NCBI RefSeq assembly: GCF_027257955.1
Contig: NZ_JANZNQ010000004.1
Coordinates: 124,001 to 188,000, forward strand
DNA length: 64,000 nucleotides
Reading direction: 5' to 3'
Origin: Zhongshania aquatica
GTDB taxonomy: Bacteria > Pseudomonadota > Gammaproteobacteria > Pseudomonadales > Spongiibacteraceae
The notes under the pieces were generated by a model. The model saw nothing but the letters and a program-made list of their open reading frames with translations. It searched no databases and was not told the DNA's origin. The translations under genes were made by a program, and so were the position numbers. Positions 8,234 to 45,095 of the stretch are shown here, piece after piece (within the stretch, counting starts at the first letter, position 1; each line of letters starts with the position of its first letter).

Positions 8234-8313
8234 TCACTGGTGTTTTAAAATTTTAGTCTAATCAATACTTATAATGGCTTGTGATTCGTTTTTCTAAAGT
8301 CTACACTTCTTAA

Positions 8314-8416
8314 CTCTTGTCGGGGTGCCCGCGTAGATTTTTTGCGCAATGTGGCTGAGATCGTTTTCGAATCCCGTATTACCTGATCTGGATAATGCCA
8401 GCGTAGGAAACAAGAT
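8314..8416 (+). promoter_or_regulatory. TPP riboswitch (THI element)
   Basis: The thi-box signatures are all present in order: CGGGGTGCCC near 8321, GGCTGAGAT at 8353-8361, then ACCTGATCTGGATAATGCCA (8381-8400) and GCGTAGGAAACAAG. The closing P1 helix is TCTTGT (8315-8320) with ACAAGA (8410-8415). A second exact copy of TCTTGT at 8439-8444 could pair with the same ACAAGA strand when TPP is absent, suggesting a two-state switch. No oligo-U terminator follows, so control of thiC is more likely translational or Rho-dependent. It sits about 150 bases before thiC, as expected. Confidence 0.95.
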
Positions 8417-8478
8417 CTCTTCAATATAGGGCCTCCTGTCTTGTGTTGATTCTGCGTTAATCTACGCACCGATCTTAA

Positions 8479-38860: not shown

Positions 38861-40378
38861 ATGCCACAGAGTTACATCAAAAAAATCCTCAAAGCTCGCG
38901 TTTATGACGTTGCTATAGAGTCGCCTGTTGACCGTATGTCGCTGATGAGCAAGCGCCTGGACAATGAGGTTTTGTTAAAGCGAGAAGATTTGCAGCCGGT
39001 ATTTTCATTCAAGCTGCGCGGTGCTTATAACAAGATGATTAGTCTCACCGAAGACGAGCGCAGCAAAGGTGTTGTTGCGGCCTCGGCGGGTAATCACGCT
39101 CAAGGTTTAGCCCTGGCTGCACTTAAACTCGGTGTTCGGGCCACCATTGTGATGCCAAGAACAACTCCGGCAATTAAAGTCGATGCGGTGCGCTCTCGCG
39201 GTGGCAAAGTGGTATTGCACGGCGATACATACGACGAGGCGTCGACTTACGCTAAAAAATTAGTCGAAGAAAAAGGCATGGTTTACGTCCACCCCTACGA
39301 CGATCCAGAGGTTATTGCTGGCCAAGGCACCGTGGGCATGGAAATTCTTCGTCAGGTTACCGGGCCTTTAGACGCGGTATTTGTACCCGTGGGTGGTGGT
39401 GGTTTGGCCGCGGGTGTTGCTGCTTATATCAAATATGTGCGCCCCGAAGTCAAAGTGATTGCGGTAGAGCCGGAAGACGCTGCCTGTCTTAAATTGGCAC
39501 TGGAAAAAGGGCGTAGGGCCATTTTGCCGGAAGTGGGTTTATTTGCCGACGGCGTTGCGGTTGCCCAAATAGGTAAGGAAACCTTCCGCGTCTTACGCAA
39601 AACAATTGATGGCGTGATTACAGCAAATACCGATGAAATCTGCGCAGCGATAAAGGATATCTTCGACGATACCCGCTCCATTGCAGAACCAGCCGGCGCA
39701 TTAGCGCTAGCTGGACTGAAAAAATACGTTCAAGAAAATGATTGCACTGGCCAAACCTTGTTGGCGATAGACAGTGGCGCTAACACAAATTTCGACCGGC
39801 TGCGCTACATTGCCGAGCGCACCGAAATTGGCGAAAAGCGCGAGGCGATCTTAAGTGTGACTATTCCAGAACGTCCCGGCAGCTTTAAAAAGTTTTGCGG
39901 CGCTTTAGGCCGTCGTAATATCACCGAGTTTAATTATCGCTTTGGTGACGACCGTGACGCGCAAATCTTCGTCGGTATTTCGGTGGCGGCAGGGGGTGGT
40001 GATAGGCAGGAGCTTGTCGATACACTGCAAAAAATGGATTACCCAGTGGCGGATTTTACCGACAACGAAATGGCTAAGCTGCATATTCGTCACATGGTTG
40101 GCGGGCATCGTCCAGCGGCAGTGAAAAATGAATTGCTTTACCGCTTTGAATTCCCCGAACGCCCGGGCGCCTTAATGAACTTTTTAACTAAGCTGGGCAA
40201 TCGCTGGAATATCTCTTTATTCCACTATCGCAATCACGGTGCGGCTTATGGTCGCGTTTTGGTTGGTCTGCAGGCAGACAAAAAAGAGCGGGTGGAGATA
40301 GAGGCATTCCTAGATAAATTGGCTTACCCCTACCACGAAGAAACCGACAATCCAGCGTATCAGCTTTTCTTGAGTTAG
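38861..40378 (+). CDS. ilvA: Threonine ammonia-lyase, biosynthetic
   Basis: IlvA deaminates threonine to 2-oxobutyrate, the first step of isoleucine synthesis. The 505-residue protein has a PLP catalytic domain (about 1-320) with the lysine motif FSFKLRGAYNKM, the Gly loop PVGGGGLAAGVAAYIK, and SAGNHAQGLALAA. Two C-terminal ACT-like regulatory domains follow (about 330-410 and 420-505), each starting with an ERPG motif (IPERPGSFKKF and FPERPGALMNF). This is the long, isoleucine-inhibited and valine-activated form. A clear terminator follows. Confidence 0.97.
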   Translation: MPQSYIKKILKARVYDVAIESPVDRMSLMSKRLDNEVLLKREDLQPVFSFKLRGAYNKMISLTEDERSKGVVAASAGNHAQGLALAALKLGVRATIVMPRTTPAIKVDAVRSRGGKVVLHGDTYDEASTYAKKLVEEKGMVYVHPYDDPEVIAGQGTVGMEILRQVTGPLDAVFVPVGGGGLAAGVAAYIKYVRPEVKVIAVEPEDAACLKLALEKGRRAILPEVGLFADGVAVAQIGKETFRVLRKTIDGVITANTDEICAAIKDIFDDTRSIAEPAGALALAGLKKYVQENDCTGQTLLAIDSGANTNFDRLRYIAERTEIGEKREAILSVTIPERPGSFKKFCGALGRRNITEFNYRFGDDRDAQIFVGISVAAGGGDRQELVDTLQKMDYPVADFTDNEMAKLHIRHMVGGHRPAAVKNELLYRFEFPERPGALMNFLTKLGNRWNISLFHYRNHGAAYGRVLVGLQADKKERVEIEAFLDKLAYPYHEETDNPAYQLFLS

Positions 40379-40472: not shown

Positions 40473-40761
40473 GTATGCCGTATTTTTGAAGGCGGCTTCG
40501 TCTCAATAGCGGTTAAACTCGTATTCAGCTGCATGGCGCTCACTAATATTGGCGGAATTCACTTAAGTAATTGATTTTTGTTGATAAGCGATTATGCTCA
40601 TGGCTAAGGGATTCCACATCGAATGCAGGATGCACACAAATGGAAAAATCATTTCAGACTTATTATCCTCCTGATTTAAATAGAATTATCCTGCTTAATC
40701 ACCTCAAACCTTCGTTTCGCCGTGTACACGAGTTATAAAGCGGAACGCATTTGAATTTGCT
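40473..40761. other. Gap between ilvA terminator and cassette array
   Basis: About 290 bases without a supportable gene. GGCGCTCACTAATATTGG near 40526 resembles the GGCGCTCAAACATTAGC segment of the first attC, and GCGATTATGC near 40588 resembles an attC end (GCGTTATGC) with one extra base. These may be remnants of an eroded attC or cassette. No integrase gene or convincing attI is present. Confidence 0.4.
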
Positions 40762-40784
40762 GTTATGCGCATTAAGAGAGAATC

Positions 40785-41288
40785 ATGGAATTAACATCCC
40801 TAATTGAAATATGGAAATGGTTTAGGTGGATTCCGCCTTTAATTTTGAAACACATATTTACAAAAAGCCGTTTATCAGAGCTGGTATATATTGATGTAAG
40901 GCCGAGAGGTGACTCGGTAAGAGTTTGCTTGGGTGAAACCTCTTCTTTTGATATTTATCTTCAAATAATAAATATGACTCCATTTGAAATCGAGCTAGAT
41001 CGAGCAGAGTTTGATTTAAACTTCAGTGGAGTGACTATAAAAAATAAACACCTCAAAAAATCCGTCATAAAAGCTGGACAAATTTATGATCTCTATATTT
41101 CTGATGGAATAGATGGATCTAAAGCCATAGTGATAGATAGAATGTCAAAATCAGGAAACGCATCGGCAATAGATGTTTATTGTGTTTTCAATTGCAAGCT
41201 AGGGCAGTTTGTAAAGGAATGCTTTCACTTGGGAAATGTAAATGTTAAATACAACGGAAATTTATCAAAAAGTGATCAGGGCGCATAA
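40785..41288 (+). CDS. Cassette gene 1: unknown protein
   Basis: 167 residues. It has an N-terminal amphipathic or membrane-associated segment (LIEIWKWFRWIPPLILKHIF) followed by a soluble, beta-rich domain. The stretch SFDIYLQIINMTPFEIELDR resembles an Ig-like or C2-like strand pattern, and VFNCKLGQFVKECFHLGN closes it. I do not recognise the family. The stop codon (41286-41288) lies inside the attC end GCATAAC, the tight packing usual in integron cassettes. AT-rich relative to ilvA. Confidence 0.7.
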   Translation: MELTSLIEIWKWFRWIPPLILKHIFTKSRLSELVYIDVRPRGDSVRVCLGETSSFDIYLQIINMTPFEIELDRAEFDLNFSGVTIKNKHLKKSVIKAGQIYDLYISDGIDGSKAIVIDRMSKSGNASAIDVYCVFNCKLGQFVKECFHLGNVNVKYNGNLSKSDQGA

Positions 41289-41397
41289 CAAAAACCGGCA
41301 GTCGCCAAAACTTCACACCTTTTGTGCTACTCGCTGGCGCTCAAACATTAGCACAAAAGGTGCTCCGTTCTGTCTGCCGCTGCGGTAGGCGTTATAT
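41283..41397 (+). other. attC site 1
   Basis: GCATAAC (41283-41289) opens the site and GTTATAT (41391-41397) closes it. CGGCAG (41296-41301) pairs with CTGCCG (41374-41379), the inner L boxes. A perfect 13-bp helix, CACCTTTTGTGCT (41316-41328) with AGCACAAAAGGTG (41350-41362), forms the variable stem. The length, 115 bases, is in the range of long chromosomal-integron sites. Its core GCCAAAACTTC is shared with attC site 4. Confidence 0.85.
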
Positions 41398-41430
41398 TCA
41401 CAGGCCAACATGGTCACATTAAGGATAGAT

Positions 41431-42558
41431 ATGAGCAAAGATAAAGAAGGTGCTTTTATATATGCCGATGAGTCAGGACATTCAGGCAAAGATATTTTTA
41501 ATGAAAAGTCACCTATTTATTATCAAGGCGCTGTAATATCCGTTGGTGAAATCGAAACCAAAGTCGCACCAATAATTCAAAAATATTGCACTGATAATGG
41601 ACTGGAAAGATTGCATGGTTACGAGCTTGGAGAAGAGAAAGTAAATAGCCTTTGCTTAGAGTTGTTGGAAGCTTTAGATGGTACTCAATGGAGATTTCAT
41701 TACACAACACTTCAAAAAAGGTATATAGCACCTACAAAATTCGTTGATACTGTCTTTGATTGTTGGGATAACCCCGCAGTCCATCCTTTCTGGTACACAA
41801 CTGAACTATTCAGACACACACTATGTATATTAATAGACGACATGATGGAAGACGGTTTAGACGTTGAGTTTTGGAGCTGTTATTTAAAAGACGATCTGGA
41901 TGGCTTAATTAATATATGTAAAGCCTTGCTGGAAAAAGCTCCATATATTTTCGATAAAAGAGCATGTGAAGTTGTCACGGCAGGGCTAAGCTACGCGATA
42001 AATAATCCCGATATCTTCACGCTAATATCAGCTAAAGGTAAAAGCGCATATAAAAAACAGACACCAAATATAATTGCTTTTTCTAGTTTATTAACTGCCA
42101 CGCATAAGTTTTGCAATGAGTATGGCGTATCAGTTTCTGAGTTTATTCATGATCAGAGCGATGAGTTCAAAGGAACGATGCGAGAGTATCACCGCATATT
42201 TTTTGGTGTTGATTTTGAAGAAGATAAATTCGGTGGCATCCCACAATTTAAAGAAGTCGAATACGACCTGGGAGAATTCAAATTAGAATCTTCAAAGATA
42301 TCCTATGGATTACAAGTAACCGATCTTTTCTTATGGGTAATTCAAAGAGATGTTAAAAATAATAGCCTTGAAGAAGCCAAGGCTAAGATATTAGACAACT
42401 CTGATGATTTCGTTATTTCAAGATCAATGTCTTTAGCAATTATCCAAGCTAGGCACTTTCAATTAATTCGGGAAGAGCTAACGCCTGAGATGATAAAAGC
42501 AGGTAAAGAATTAAACAAAAAAATTGAAGCCAACCAAAAAGCAGCAATGGATAAGTGA
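41431..42558 (+). CDS. Cassette gene 2: DUF3800 domain protein
   Basis: 375 residues from the ATG at 41431, chosen because AAGGA (41421-41425) precedes it; the frame opens at 41410 inside the spacer. The N-terminal FIYADESGHSG (D13, E14) and the C-terminal SYGLQVTDLFLWVIQRD (D298) are the two hallmark acidic motifs of DUF3800. EFIHDQSDEF in between supplies further acidic residues. The spacing suggests a metal-dependent nuclease-like fold, but no activity is established for the family that I know of. It is AT-rich, with a cassette-type position between attC sites 1 and 2. Confidence 0.8.
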   Translation: MSKDKEGAFIYADESGHSGKDIFNEKSPIYYQGAVISVGEIETKVAPIIQKYCTDNGLERLHGYELGEEKVNSLCLELLEALDGTQWRFHYTTLQKRYIAPTKFVDTVFDCWDNPAVHPFWYTTELFRHTLCILIDDMMEDGLDVEFWSCYLKDDLDGLINICKALLEKAPYIFDKRACEVVTAGLSYAINNPDIFTLISAKGKSAYKKQTPNIIAFSSLLTATHKFCNEYGVSVSEFIHDQSDEFKGTMREYHRIFFGVDFEEDKFGGIPQFKEVEYDLGEFKLESSKISYGLQVTDLFLWVIQRDVKNNSLEEAKAKILDNSDDFVISRSMSLAIIQARHFQLIREELTPEMIKAGKELNKKIEANQKAAMDK

Positions 42559-42570
42559 ATATAAAAAAAC

Positions 42571-42676
42571 GCATGTTGTCGGAATGGTTTTCTGAACTTG
42601 TACCGCTTTAGTGGACTGAATATTTTCAGGCACCATAGAGGTACAAGTTCACTCGCTGTTTAGCAGAGCGTTATGC
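42571..42676 (+). other. attC site 2 (5' end degenerate)
   Basis: The 3' end GAGCGTTATGC is canonical (GTTATGC 42670-42676). A perfect 12-bp helix, TGAACTTGTACC (42593-42604) with GGTACAAGTTCA (42640-42651), forms the stem. The 5' end, GCATGTTGTCGG at 42571, departs from GCATAAC, so this side is degenerate or mispredicted. Confidence 0.7.
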
Positions 42677-42687
42677 ATAAGGAAATC

Positions 42688-43509
42688 ATGGACATCAACT
42701 TAAACGATATTTTGAATTTTGACGATCCTAAGAATTATAAGATTCATCTGGCAACGTGGAATGGAAAAGTTCAGCCCTTGGAAGTATTTGTGAGAGACCG
42801 AGAGGAATGGAAAGGCTGGAACTCTTGGCGCAGTGAAAAGGATGACTTTAATAGGCAATTTATTTTTAGCCTTATGGACTACTACCATGAGTCTAATGAG
42901 TGGTTGTTTGGTGGAGTATATGAAGTCGTCGAGCGGCTAAACCTGACAAGAGGGCGTGGTTACAAAATTTCTTTAACCGATCAGTTTGCTCCATATATCG
43001 GTAGACTTAAATTAAGTTGGAAAAGGTCAGGTAGAGCTAAATCGAGAAAACTTGAAAACTATCTTGAAGAATTTCGAGTGTCAGAAATACTGCGCGAAGA
43101 ATACACAGGCGCATTATTTTGTGGTTACGAGCATATCAACCATGATTTCCATGTTCTCGAAAATATTTTTCTCACTTCCAAGCCAGATTGGAGAGCTGCA
43201 CTCTATAGTGTAAAAGGAGTGTATCTCATAATGGACAAAAGCAATGGAAAAAAGTACGTTGGTTCGGCTTATGGTGTTGATGGAATCTGGTCACGTTGGT
43301 CTTGCTACATTGGTAACGGTCATGGTCATAATGACGAGCTTACAAAACTAATAAAATCTAAAGGTAAGGAATATGCTCGTCAGAACTTCAGATTTTCTCT
43401 TTTAGAGTATCGCCCGATGAAAACTGATGATTCTGAGATAATTTCCCGAGAGAGTTATTGGAAAGAGGTCTTACTCTCCAGAGGTGAATTCGGCTATAAC
43501 AGAAACTAA
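42688..43509 (+). CDS. Cassette gene 3: GIY-YIG nuclease with unknown N-terminal domain
   Basis: 273 residues from the ATG at 42688 (SD AAGGA at 42678). An earlier in-frame ATG at 42673 lies inside the attC end and is unlikely to be used. The C-terminal third is a GIY-YIG nuclease. G177-V178-Y179 and Y190-V191-G192 form the two halves of the signature, R203 sits in the expected catalytic-Arg position, and E255 in SRESYWKE is the metal-binding Glu. Residues 1-165 carry no domain I can name; they contain two basic patches (KLSWKRSGRAKSRKLENYLE) that could bind DNA. It could be a stand-alone restriction-type or repair nuclease. Confidence 0.82.
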   Translation: MDINLNDILNFDDPKNYKIHLATWNGKVQPLEVFVRDREEWKGWNSWRSEKDDFNRQFIFSLMDYYHESNEWLFGGVYEVVERLNLTRGRGYKISLTDQFAPYIGRLKLSWKRSGRAKSRKLENYLEEFRVSEILREEYTGALFCGYEHINHDFHVLENIFLTSKPDWRAALYSVKGVYLIMDKSNGKKYVGSAYGVDGIWSRWSCYIGNGHGHNDELTKLIKSKGKEYARQNFRFSLLEYRPMKTDDSEIISRESYWKEVLLSRGEFGYNRN

Positions 43510-43511
43510 AT

Positions 43512-43592
43512 GCATAACAAGGCCAAGCACAGCGCCCGCAAAATACGCGGGCTGGACCTCGCTTCGCTCGGCCCGTGTTGGCGGCGTTATGC
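43512..43592 (+). other. attC site 3
   Basis: GCATAAC (43512-43518) and GTTATGC (43586-43592) are perfectly complementary ends. GCCAA near 43522 pairs with TTGGC near 43579 as inner boxes, and CGGGC pairs with GCCCG in the centre. At 81 bases it is shorter than site 1. This is the best-formed of the four sites. Confidence 0.88.
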
Positions 43593-43614
43593 ATTTTGGG
43601 GTCGGAGCGAAAAT

Positions 43615-44007
43615 ATGAGACTACTCGTAATTTTGGCGTTTTTATTTTCAGCCTATTCCTTTGGAGGAGAGCAGTCGTCTGACATAGTTGGCTGCTGGGA
43701 TGCCGAGATTGAGGACTACCACAACGTTGTTACAGTCTGCGTTAACCATGATTTCGGCAGTATCTCTACACTATTTTCAAATGACGATGTGGGTGTGCCA
43801 CTTACTCGGTGTACTCAGCCTGCAACAGTTGCGCTGGATTCTTCGGAGGAGATCACTTTAAAAGGACTCGGTGGCTTGTGCAGAAATGGAAACAGGCAGG
43901 GAGAAGTGACTATGAAGTGTAATCCTGCTGGGAGAGCTGAGATGCAGTGCAAAATTTTCACTTCTTATCACGAAGTAAAAGCCACTAAGCGAGAGATTTA
44001 CAGATAA
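43615..44007 (+). CDS. Cassette gene 4: small exported cysteine-rich protein
   Basis: 130 residues from the ATG at 43615, which has SD CGGAG. The frame also opens at 43510 inside attC 3, which is not a real start. A signal peptide (MRLLVILAFLFSAYSFG) is followed by a mature domain of about 110 residues with six Cys (in GCWDAE, VTVC, LTRC, GLC, TMKC and MQC), which could make three disulfides. The start IVGCWDAEIEDYHN resembles small periplasmic domains with a lipocalin-like strand opening. I do not recognise the family. Confidence 0.72.
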   Translation: MRLLVILAFLFSAYSFGGEQSSDIVGCWDAEIEDYHNVVTVCVNHDFGSISTLFSNDDVGVPLTRCTQPATVALDSSEEITLKGLGGLCRNGNRQGEVTMKCNPAGRAEMQCKIFTSYHEVKATKREIYR

Positions 44008-44008
44008 T

Positions 44009-44101
44009 GCATAACAAGTACGCGCAGTTGCCGCTGAAAGACGCGGCTGGATAGCCAAAACTCCGCACCTTTTTGGCTGCCCCTGGCGTAGCGCGGTATG
44101 A
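44009..44101 (+). other. attC site 4 (3' end degenerate)
   Basis: It opens with GCATAAC (44009-44015), two bases after the stop codon of cassette gene 4. AGCCAAAA pairs with TTTTGGCT (8 bp) in the middle. The expected GTTATGC end is replaced by GGTATGA (44095-44101). It shares GCCAAAACTCCGCACCTTTT with attC site 1 (two substitutions). As the terminal site of the array it may have decayed or recombined. Confidence 0.65.
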
Positions 44102-44173: not shown

Positions 44174-44776
44174 CTATCGTCTTTTTGCTTTTATTACTTG
44201 CCGATCTGTCACAATAAAATCGAGGGGAATATCCCAGTCATCACTCGGTAAGGAGTTCACTTCTTGGCAGTGGTGGGCTAGGCCAATCATGATGGGTTTG
44301 CGCGTTTTATTATTTCGTTTGAACGCGAAAGCGCGGTCGTAGTATCCGCCGCCCATGCCGAGGCGTCGTCCGTTCTTATCAAATCCGGTTAATGGTAAAA
44401 GCACAATGTCTAGCTTGCGCGCCGGGTGTGGTTGCCGCCGTAAGCCTGTGGGTTCGCCAATGCCGTATTGGTTTGGACTAAGAGGTTGGCGGTGGTGGTA
44501 GGGGTAGAACGCCATCTTATTACTTGCGGCTGATTGCGATATTTTCGGCAGATAGCAGCGCTTTGCGCCTAGATTGGCGTAACGTAAAAGTGGTGCAGGC
44601 GATATCTCGCCGTCGCTTGCGATATATGCGGCAATATGGCGAGCCTTGCGAAAAGCAGCGAGTCGGATCAGGCGATGCATAATTAGCTTTGCGGCGACAG
44701 TTTGCTGTTTCGAGCTAAGGTTTTGGCGTCGCGCACGAAGCTCGCGTCGTAATTTAGATTTCAAGGTGGAATTCAT
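44174..44776 (-). CDS. fthC: 5-formyltetrahydrofolate cyclo-ligase
   Basis: FthC (YgfA) converts 5-formyl-THF to 5,10-methenyl-THF, clearing the SHMT inhibitor. The protein has 200 residues from the ATG at 44776; the frame extends through the 6S RNA, which is not coding. Key segments: KSKLRRELRARRQNLS at the N-terminus, GEISPAPLL, LTGFDKNGRRLGMGGGYYDRA (the nucleotide and folate signature, quoted in part) and IGLAHHCQEV. It ends a minus-strand zapB-like/zapA/6S RNA/fthC unit typical of gammaproteobacteria. Confidence 0.95.
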   Translation of the reverse strand: MNSTLKSKLRRELRARRQNLSSKQQTVAAKLIMHRLIRLAAFRKARHIAAYIASDGEISPAPLLRYANLGAKRCYLPKISQSAASNKMAFYPYHHRQPLSPNQYGIGEPTGLRRQPHPARKLDIVLLPLTGFDKNGRRLGMGGGYYDRAFAFKRNNKTRKPIMIGLAHHCQEVNSLPSDDWDIPLDFIVTDRQVIKAKRR

Positions 44777-44849
44777 ACGGGCAGTATAGCGCCGACACAA
44801 AGAAAGTGTGATGGTTTGAAATATAGATGAATTACAAAAGAGGGTGAAA

Positions 44850-45028
44850 AAGGCCCCAAGATACCGCCGGCTACGTGGCCCTTGAACCCAGCGGTTCAAG
44901 GTGGAGTTCCCCGCAAGATTTTTAGGCTTTCCGACAAGCGGACATGCACACCAATCTCGGCTAGAGTCCTCCGGGGTAAAAAGCATCGGCTCAGGGGTCT
45001 AAGCAGCCTAGCTAATATCCCAGGGTGT
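44850..45028 (-). ncRNA. ssrS: 6S RNA
   Basis: 6S RNA mimics an open promoter and sequesters sigma70 RNA polymerase in stationary phase. On the minus strand the segment reads CCCCTGAGCCGATGCTTTT, then GGTGTGCATGTCCG, then GGAAAGCCTAAAAATCTTGC. CACCTTGAACCGCTGGGTTC and AAGGG follow, in the same order as the E. coli RNA. The closing helix is CCCTGGGATAT (5' side, 45015-45025) with GTATCTTGGGG (3' side, 44854-44864), including G-U pairs. The zapA-ssrS-fthC order confirms the assignment. Ends are approximate. GCCTTTTT follows at the 3' end. Confidence 0.92.
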
Positions 45029-45095
45029 AACAAAGTATACCGTTTGGCCCGGCCTAATAATAGGGTGGGCTTATAAGGGGATGTGCTTGTTTACA

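Follow-up and report, generated by a model that had tools for sequence, protein, structure and literature searches.

A probable integrase-less integron with an attI leader between ilvA and fthC of Zhongshania aquatica, and the family of dispersed leaders to which it belongs

In a stretch of 64,000 nucleotides of the Zhongshania aquatica genome (contig NZ_JANZNQ010000004.1, positions 124,001 to 188,000; the whole stretch is called the window below), the interval between ilvA and fthC probably harbors an integrase-less integron, an attI leader followed by four cassettes, which would belong to a genus-specific family of dispersed leaders loaded in trans by the integron integrase IntI. Its sequence identifies the leader as DNA from the attI side of intI-bearing integrons; most of the examined copies lack intI, and cassettes follow them in one orientation. 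The alignments further indicate that the same intI-less leader is occupied by different cassettes in related species and that the breaks lie at the crossover. The window genome (G000; the window lies on its contig C52) was compared with 20 relatives, so that the comparison set comprised 21 family genomes.

The attI leader and the attC sites of the window

The array consists of the following features, given as positions of the window:
40494..40513, + strand, END repeat, degenerate copy
40515..40762, + strand, type-A attI leader, ending at the crossover between G40762 and T40763
40571..40598, + strand, possible cassette promoter (Pc) inside the leader: TTGATT, 16 nt, TATGCT
40763..41391, + strand, cassette 1, open reading frame (ORF) 40785-41288, 167 aa
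41283..41397, + strand, attC site 1, R1 39.0 bits, E 1.1e-7
41392..42670, + strand, cassette 2, ORF 41410-42558, DUF3800
42559..42676, + strand, attC site 2, decayed by inspection: R'' ATATAAA (42559-42565) mutated, R' GTTATGC (42670-42676) intact
42671..43586, + strand, cassette 3, ORF 42673-43509 (inner ATG at 42688), GIY-YIG protein, UzuA-like defence candidate
43512..43592, + strand, attC site 3, R1 54.1 bits, E 1.2e-11
43587..44095 (right edge approximate), + strand, cassette 4, ORF 43615-44007, 130 aa, hydrophobic N-terminus
44009..44101, + strand, attC site 4, R1 27.4 bits, E 1.1e-4, R' degenerate (GGTATGA)

The leader, which occupies about 250 bp before cassette 1, was found through its match to the DNA between an intI remnant and the first cassette on contig C39 of the same genome. 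An attI at the start of the array is thus indicated by homology: the leader resembles intI-adjacent attI DNA and ends in a G followed by TTA. A sequence-only reading of the window had let the cluster start at 40762, which is the exact coordinate of the attI crossover, but it missed the leader to the left of this point. The END copy in front of the leader lacks 16 bp between two GCGGT repeats, as seen by eye in an alignment of 25 leader copies. The putative Pc is conserved across this alignment, and a consensus promoter scan did not report it.

The same reading had called the cluster a CALIN (cluster of attC sites lacking an integron integrase). The term holds as far as the cassettes have at least two attC sites and no intI, but the implied attC-only array does not stand, since the leader starts it. 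With attI and attC present and intI absent beside attI, the window array is, by these sequence features, not a complete integron. A plain CALIN, formed when cassettes entered a secondary (attG) site in the ilvA-fthC interval with no attI involved, would have its precedent in the available part of PMC12444791, where CALINs away from the integron locus and insertion at attG are described. We regard this explanation as very improbable, as it is contradicted by the 250 bp to the left of the crossover, which are a repeated leader that elsewhere stands beside intI. The integrase, said earlier to be absent from the window, is missing from the whole contig: the integron integrase family TIGR02249 had no match on C52 at E <= 0.001.

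The attC sites were evaluated with a covariance model, R1, which was trained on 28 attC sites, none of them in the window (contig C33 of the window's own genome gave 11, six relatives gave 17), with the structure drawn by hand on the alignment. The paired positions of the training set covary: 84.4% of the cells were paired versus 64.0% after shuffling, and none of 500 shuffles reached an equally high value. When the 64 kb were scanned on both strands with filters off, R1 matched three of the four proposed sites, and the next and last match, elsewhere in the window, had an E-value of 1.3. An early regex-plus-fold scan of the window, which R1 superseded, had recovered sites 1 and 3 alone. The pairing of R'' with R' and of L'' with L' fits sites 1, 3 and 4; it does not fit site 2, which had neither an R1 match in the window scan nor a BLAST match (E <= 1e-4) in the collected loci, and whose 5' half resembles, by eye, the attC at L069:15022-15093. 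Therefore, the earlier claim of four attC-like sites is borne out by the covariance model at three of them, and the remaining one is best described as decayed. Two details of that claim were found in the sequence as described, namely the GCATAAC that opens three of the sites and the common core of sites 1 and 4, GCCAAAACT.

The array on C33 contains near-copies of sites 1, 3 and 4, and site 1 is 86% identical over 111 bp to one of its attC sites. We give next to no credit to the idea that the four sites are chance stem-loops around ordinary island genes. The failure of R1 at site 2 would agree with it; however, three matches with E-values from 1e-4 to 1e-11, with the next one at 1.3, and near-copies within a true array speak against it, and for sites 1, 3 and 4 the R1 matches refute it. 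At its right end site 4 merges into a repeat resembling repetitive extragenic palindromic (REP) sequences, and the same repeat occurs in the ilvA-fthC gap of relatives. The right end, without a proper R' and running into this repeat, makes the window unit look trimmed.

Dispersed leaders, their cassettes and the integrase

The type-A leader had 27 matches, two of them fragments, in 7 of the 21 family genomes, and the type-B leader, represented by a query from the C33 integron and searched in the same 21 genomes, had 86, many of them partial, in 15. The window genome accounts for 16 of these matches (6 of type A and 10 of type B, some partial) and has at least 11 loci with attC matches. In an order-wide sample of 145 genomes from 91 genera the type-A leader was found in two genomes of one genus, the window genome and a congener; among the plasmids searched it had no match. 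Conservation of the 25 aligned type-A copies ends at the crossover, which reads GTTA in 24 copies and GTTC in one. Over the last 40 nt before the crossover the 24 GTTA copies have a pairwise identity of 0.903, which falls to 0.292 over the first 40 nt beyond it; the corresponding values for 23 type-B copies are 0.688 and 0.298.

For the analysis of neighbors we used 61 distinct copies (25 of type A, 36 of type B) whose match reaches to 20 nt or less from the attI end; they are a subset of all leader matches, and nine of them comprise the attI core only. One IntI protein query was compared with the 1.5 kb to the left of each copy. It detected intI at 11 copies, two of these matches being weak or partial, and none at the other 50, among which three had a flank shorter than 1.5 kb. 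The type-A copies beside intI are those of G009, G012, G004 (broken) and C39 (broken). A regex-and-fold scan placed 73 attC-like sites downstream of 38 of the 61 copies on the leader's strand (137 kb), whereas the opposite strand had 5; the figures for the 114 kb upstream are 11 and 5. R1 points the same way in the window genome, where scoring 150 of 1222 candidates gave 41 matches (E <= 1), a lower bound: 32 of the at least 41 belong to leader loci, where they lie downstream of the leader on its own strand, as do 20 of the at least 29 that remain without C33, the source of training sites. Seven of the nine matches outside leader loci are within 2 kb of a contig end.

The genome-wide check for intI proposed along with the sequence-only reading gave one full-length match in the window genome (C33, 418.8 bits), which carries a single in-frame TGA, together with fragments of the gene on C19 and C39. 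Among the other 20 genomes 16 have an uninterrupted copy, and G006, G007, G008 and G011 had no match at E <= 1e-60. The C33 gene (L009:7277-8590) is preceded by CTGTATAAAAATACAG, which resembles a LexA box.

Evidence for loading in trans comes from orthologous leaders. The leader on C96 has no intI. G000 and G008 agree in its flanks, which are 97% identical along 2.2 kb on one side and 91% along 6.8 kb on the other, but not in its cassettes: G000 has an HNH nuclease gene with an attC of 51.7 bits, G008 has genes for an FRG-domain protein and a PhyH-like protein, and G016 carries yet another set. The breaks in G000 and G008 coincide with the crossover on the side of the leader and lie between G and TT on the opposite side. 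The G016 locus has extra DNA to the left of the leader and further genes to the right, and its right break was not placed. The interval between the flanking genes of C96 contained neither leader nor attC in G005, G006, G009 and G012, and these gaps were too diverged to place the edge of the insertion against empty relatives. A second intI-less leader, on C19 and on contig C1 of G008, is likewise followed by different arrays between conserved flanks (left 96.2% over 638 bp, right 93.3% over 643 bp), and three further leader pairs have left flanks alone in common. Cassettes are also common to separate loci. One is a first cassette of 371 bp (99.5% identity) that follows a leader of type A in G016 and one of type B in G006; another, of 449 bp (96.2% identity), is present both on C33 and on the intI-less C28 of the window genome. 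From the differing cassettes at orthologous intI-less leaders and the cassettes common to several loci we infer that a single locus would have supplied the IntI that placed cassettes at many attI leaders in trans. The loci may each once have been complete, or they may derive from an intI-deleted copy that spread.

One would argue that the window holds an ordinary decayed integron, its intI deleted and its array a relic, and that the other copies are separate decayed integrons without any trans loading. Decay of intI is indeed visible at the C39 and G004 copies, and on the tree of the 25 type-A leaders, where the four intI-adjacent copies fall in a clade of seven (99/99) and 18 intI-less copies, including that of the window, lie outside it, the intI label does not cluster significantly. 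However, about ten of the 25 type-A copies have an identical join between END and leader, as seen by eye, and the cassettes differ at two orthologous intI-less sites of which both flanks are conserved. As a general account this explanation is therefore unlikely, though it may still hold for the window locus alone.

Several observations weigh against the trans-loading interpretation and have to be set beside the evidence above. Separate losses of intI would likewise yield intI-less leaders, and 23 of the 61 copies had no attC in the regex-and-fold scan. The leader tree lacks support for 13 of its 22 inner branches, and the clustering of the intI label on it does not exceed chance (56 of 500 label shuffles were as low); thus the tree alone is no proof of separate spread. 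The only full-length intI of the window genome bears the in-frame TGA, which makes present integrase action in this strain doubtful, and G006, G007 and G008 have many leaders and no intI at the threshold given above, so that present activity there is unlikely. The last attC of the G008 array at C96 is weak (E 0.029), and the window genome is a draft in which repeats break contigs. The window unit itself is probably frozen in this strain, given that site 2 and the right end have suffered damage and that the search turned up no intact intI.

The END repeat is a palindromic sequence that precedes many leaders of both types; in G009, G012 and G004 it is located past the 3' end of intI. Its pattern had 33 matches in 10 of the 21 genomes and none for the reversed control. 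The END-leader join that about ten copies have in common makes it possible that intI was deleted once and that the product then spread. END also precedes unrelated genes, and no copy was observed next to the intI of C33. The suggestion that END derives from an ISL3-like element could not be supported. At L139:13270-17428 of G009, several single genes spaced by about 1 kb are each preceded by END in one and the same orientation, a layout like a second type of tandem array without attC.

Other sequences recur on the far side of the arrays. The motif GTTGAGGCTGTANAAAAAC, to the right of the last attC, had 59 matches in 15 of the 21 genomes (reversed control, 11), and 18 of 48 matches in the collected loci share a longer continuation; it is not claimed as the right end of a mobile unit, an inverted copy lying about 160 bp away in L263 and L283. 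In these loci (L263:1501-1680, L283:1501-1680 and 2306-2485) there are elements about 180 bp long, with TTGAGGCTGTAGAAAAAC as their inverted ends, that resemble small transposons; many loci show a comparable start after their last attC. In L220, L227, L206, L068 and L003 attC sites are followed by a nearly identical sequence of about 127 bp, several times at a contig end; it is probably a mobile element inserted at attC.

The ilvA-fthC interval and the cassette genes

The host flanks and the neighboring RNA gene are as follows:
38861..40378, + strand, ilvA, left flank (PALP 262.6 bits, Thr_dehydrat_C 176.7 bits)
44174..44776, - strand, fthC, right flank (5-FTHF_cyc-lig 156.5 bits)
44849..45029, - strand, 6S RNA (RF00013, 102.8 bits)

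These flanks agree with the position between ilvA and fthC given in the sequence-only reading. An Rfam scan of the window reported 6S RNA and a thiamine pyrophosphate (TPP) riboswitch as its sole entries, the latter at 8311-8426 (69.7 bits). The ends of ilvA and fthC are 2-187 bp apart in 12 of the 20 relatives. The six closest relatives do not have ilvA within 1.5 kb of fthC, the sixth ending at a contig edge, and in two relatives of another genus ilvA was likewise not seen within this distance. In the comparison of this interval across related strains that had been proposed earlier, the gap measures 1.7-4.3 kb in the five closest relatives in which it is covered and holds genes different from those of the window. 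R1 found attC sites in two of them: two matches in G009, and one in G012, where a regex scan added a second site. There was no R1 attC match at E <= 1 in the gaps of G005, G008 and G016. The G012 gap also has a type-B leader in the same orientation and a gene for an Mrr-type type-IV restriction candidate.

All four window ORFs between the flanks have the same orientation, as had been reported. The AT-richness claimed for them applies to the DNA of ORFs 1-3 (34-40% GC) and less so to ORF 4, which at about 46-48% is near the surroundings (about 50%). The earlier label of nuclease-like function can be made more specific for genes 2 and 3. Genes 1 and 4 have no family in the domain-family and PADLOC searches (the best PADLOC result for the cassette 1 protein had an E-value of 0.03), and the cassette 2 protein is assigned to DUF3800 (PF12686, 32.6 bits, cut-off 21). 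Genes 1, 2 and 4 had no tblastn match among the collected loci.

Uzume is a defence system. The cassette 3 protein matches the PADLOC model of UzuA with 185.9 bits (E 2.6e-55; residues 7-278 to model positions 2-278 of 278) and the GIY-YIG family with 23 bits (cut-off 22.6), and it is a UzuA-like candidate for anti-phage defence on the strength of these profile matches. Its nearest relatives are found in Methylophilus (87% identity, no attC by R1) and in a BD1-7 genome (78%, flanked by R1 matches); in the order-wide sample one other genome alone has a relative. The BD1-7 clade contig L016:1-4390 looks like a cassette array, with seven attC matches and the UzuA relative as one of its cassettes. 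Four of ten ORFs picked from leader loci matched PADLOC at >= 44 bits. At L154:11382-12329 an FRG-domain protein, the PADLOC candidate PDC-S15 (377 bits), is encoded behind an intI-less leader.

Known systems and implications

Like CALINs, the loci described here have attC cassettes and no nearby intI; unlike them, they start with a conserved attI leader, whereas the CALIN definition, as worded in the available sources, counts attC only. The available part of PMC12444791 states that CALIN cassettes can be mobilised in trans by a functional IntI, and it describes Xanthomonas CALINs away from ilvD, which resemble our loci in that the chromosome has several sets of cassettes, at conserved positions and separate from intI; that part reports no attI at them, in contrast to the attI leader found here. 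Another likeness is a CALIN of a Shewanella sp. prophage, where the array, itself without intI, begins with an attI resembling that of a complete integron (PMC9892861, as far as its text is available). It is one case in one prophage, whereas here 61 copies were examined genus-wide and orthologous sites hold different cassettes. In the Delta-attI gene cassettes of mobile integrons attI-derived sequence is also displaced from beside intI, but in the accessible text of PMC12901181 these attI pieces end single resistance cassettes, while here a whole leader starts each array. Going by these partial texts, one attI-bearing CALIN (PMC9892861) as well as dispersed Xanthomonas CALINs and the idea of trans mobilisation (PMC12444791) are already in print. 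As for detection, the available description of IntegronFinder 2 limits its attI detection to class 1 (PMC9024848).

Within the window genome, the sedentary chromosomal integron on C33 has the same attC types, an attI leader and the same kind of array; it differs from the window unit in having an intI, the one with the in-frame TGA, at least 12 R1 matches and the other leader type (B). In the open-licence literature we found no report of a genus with many dispersed intI-less attI arrays.

The origins proposed for CALINs are degraded integrons or off-target insertions. The present findings suggest that one integrase can fill many separate docking sites. Going further, and with confidence that falls somewhat short of even, we propose a distributed integron in this genus: a multiplied attI platform in which a genome can keep a dozen or more mostly intI-less leaders, filled in trans by one integrase. 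Cassettes would then occupy many places of the chromosome simultaneously, and the leader would spread as an independent intI-less element. Tools that rely on intI and attC only would call such loci CALINs or, where a single attC is present, miss them. Some of the cassettes resemble anti-phage genes, as UzuA does in the window and the PADLOC matches do at other leader loci. A third, testable origin of CALINs would be attI platforms that persist after their integrase is lost, or exceed it in number, and receive cassettes in trans.

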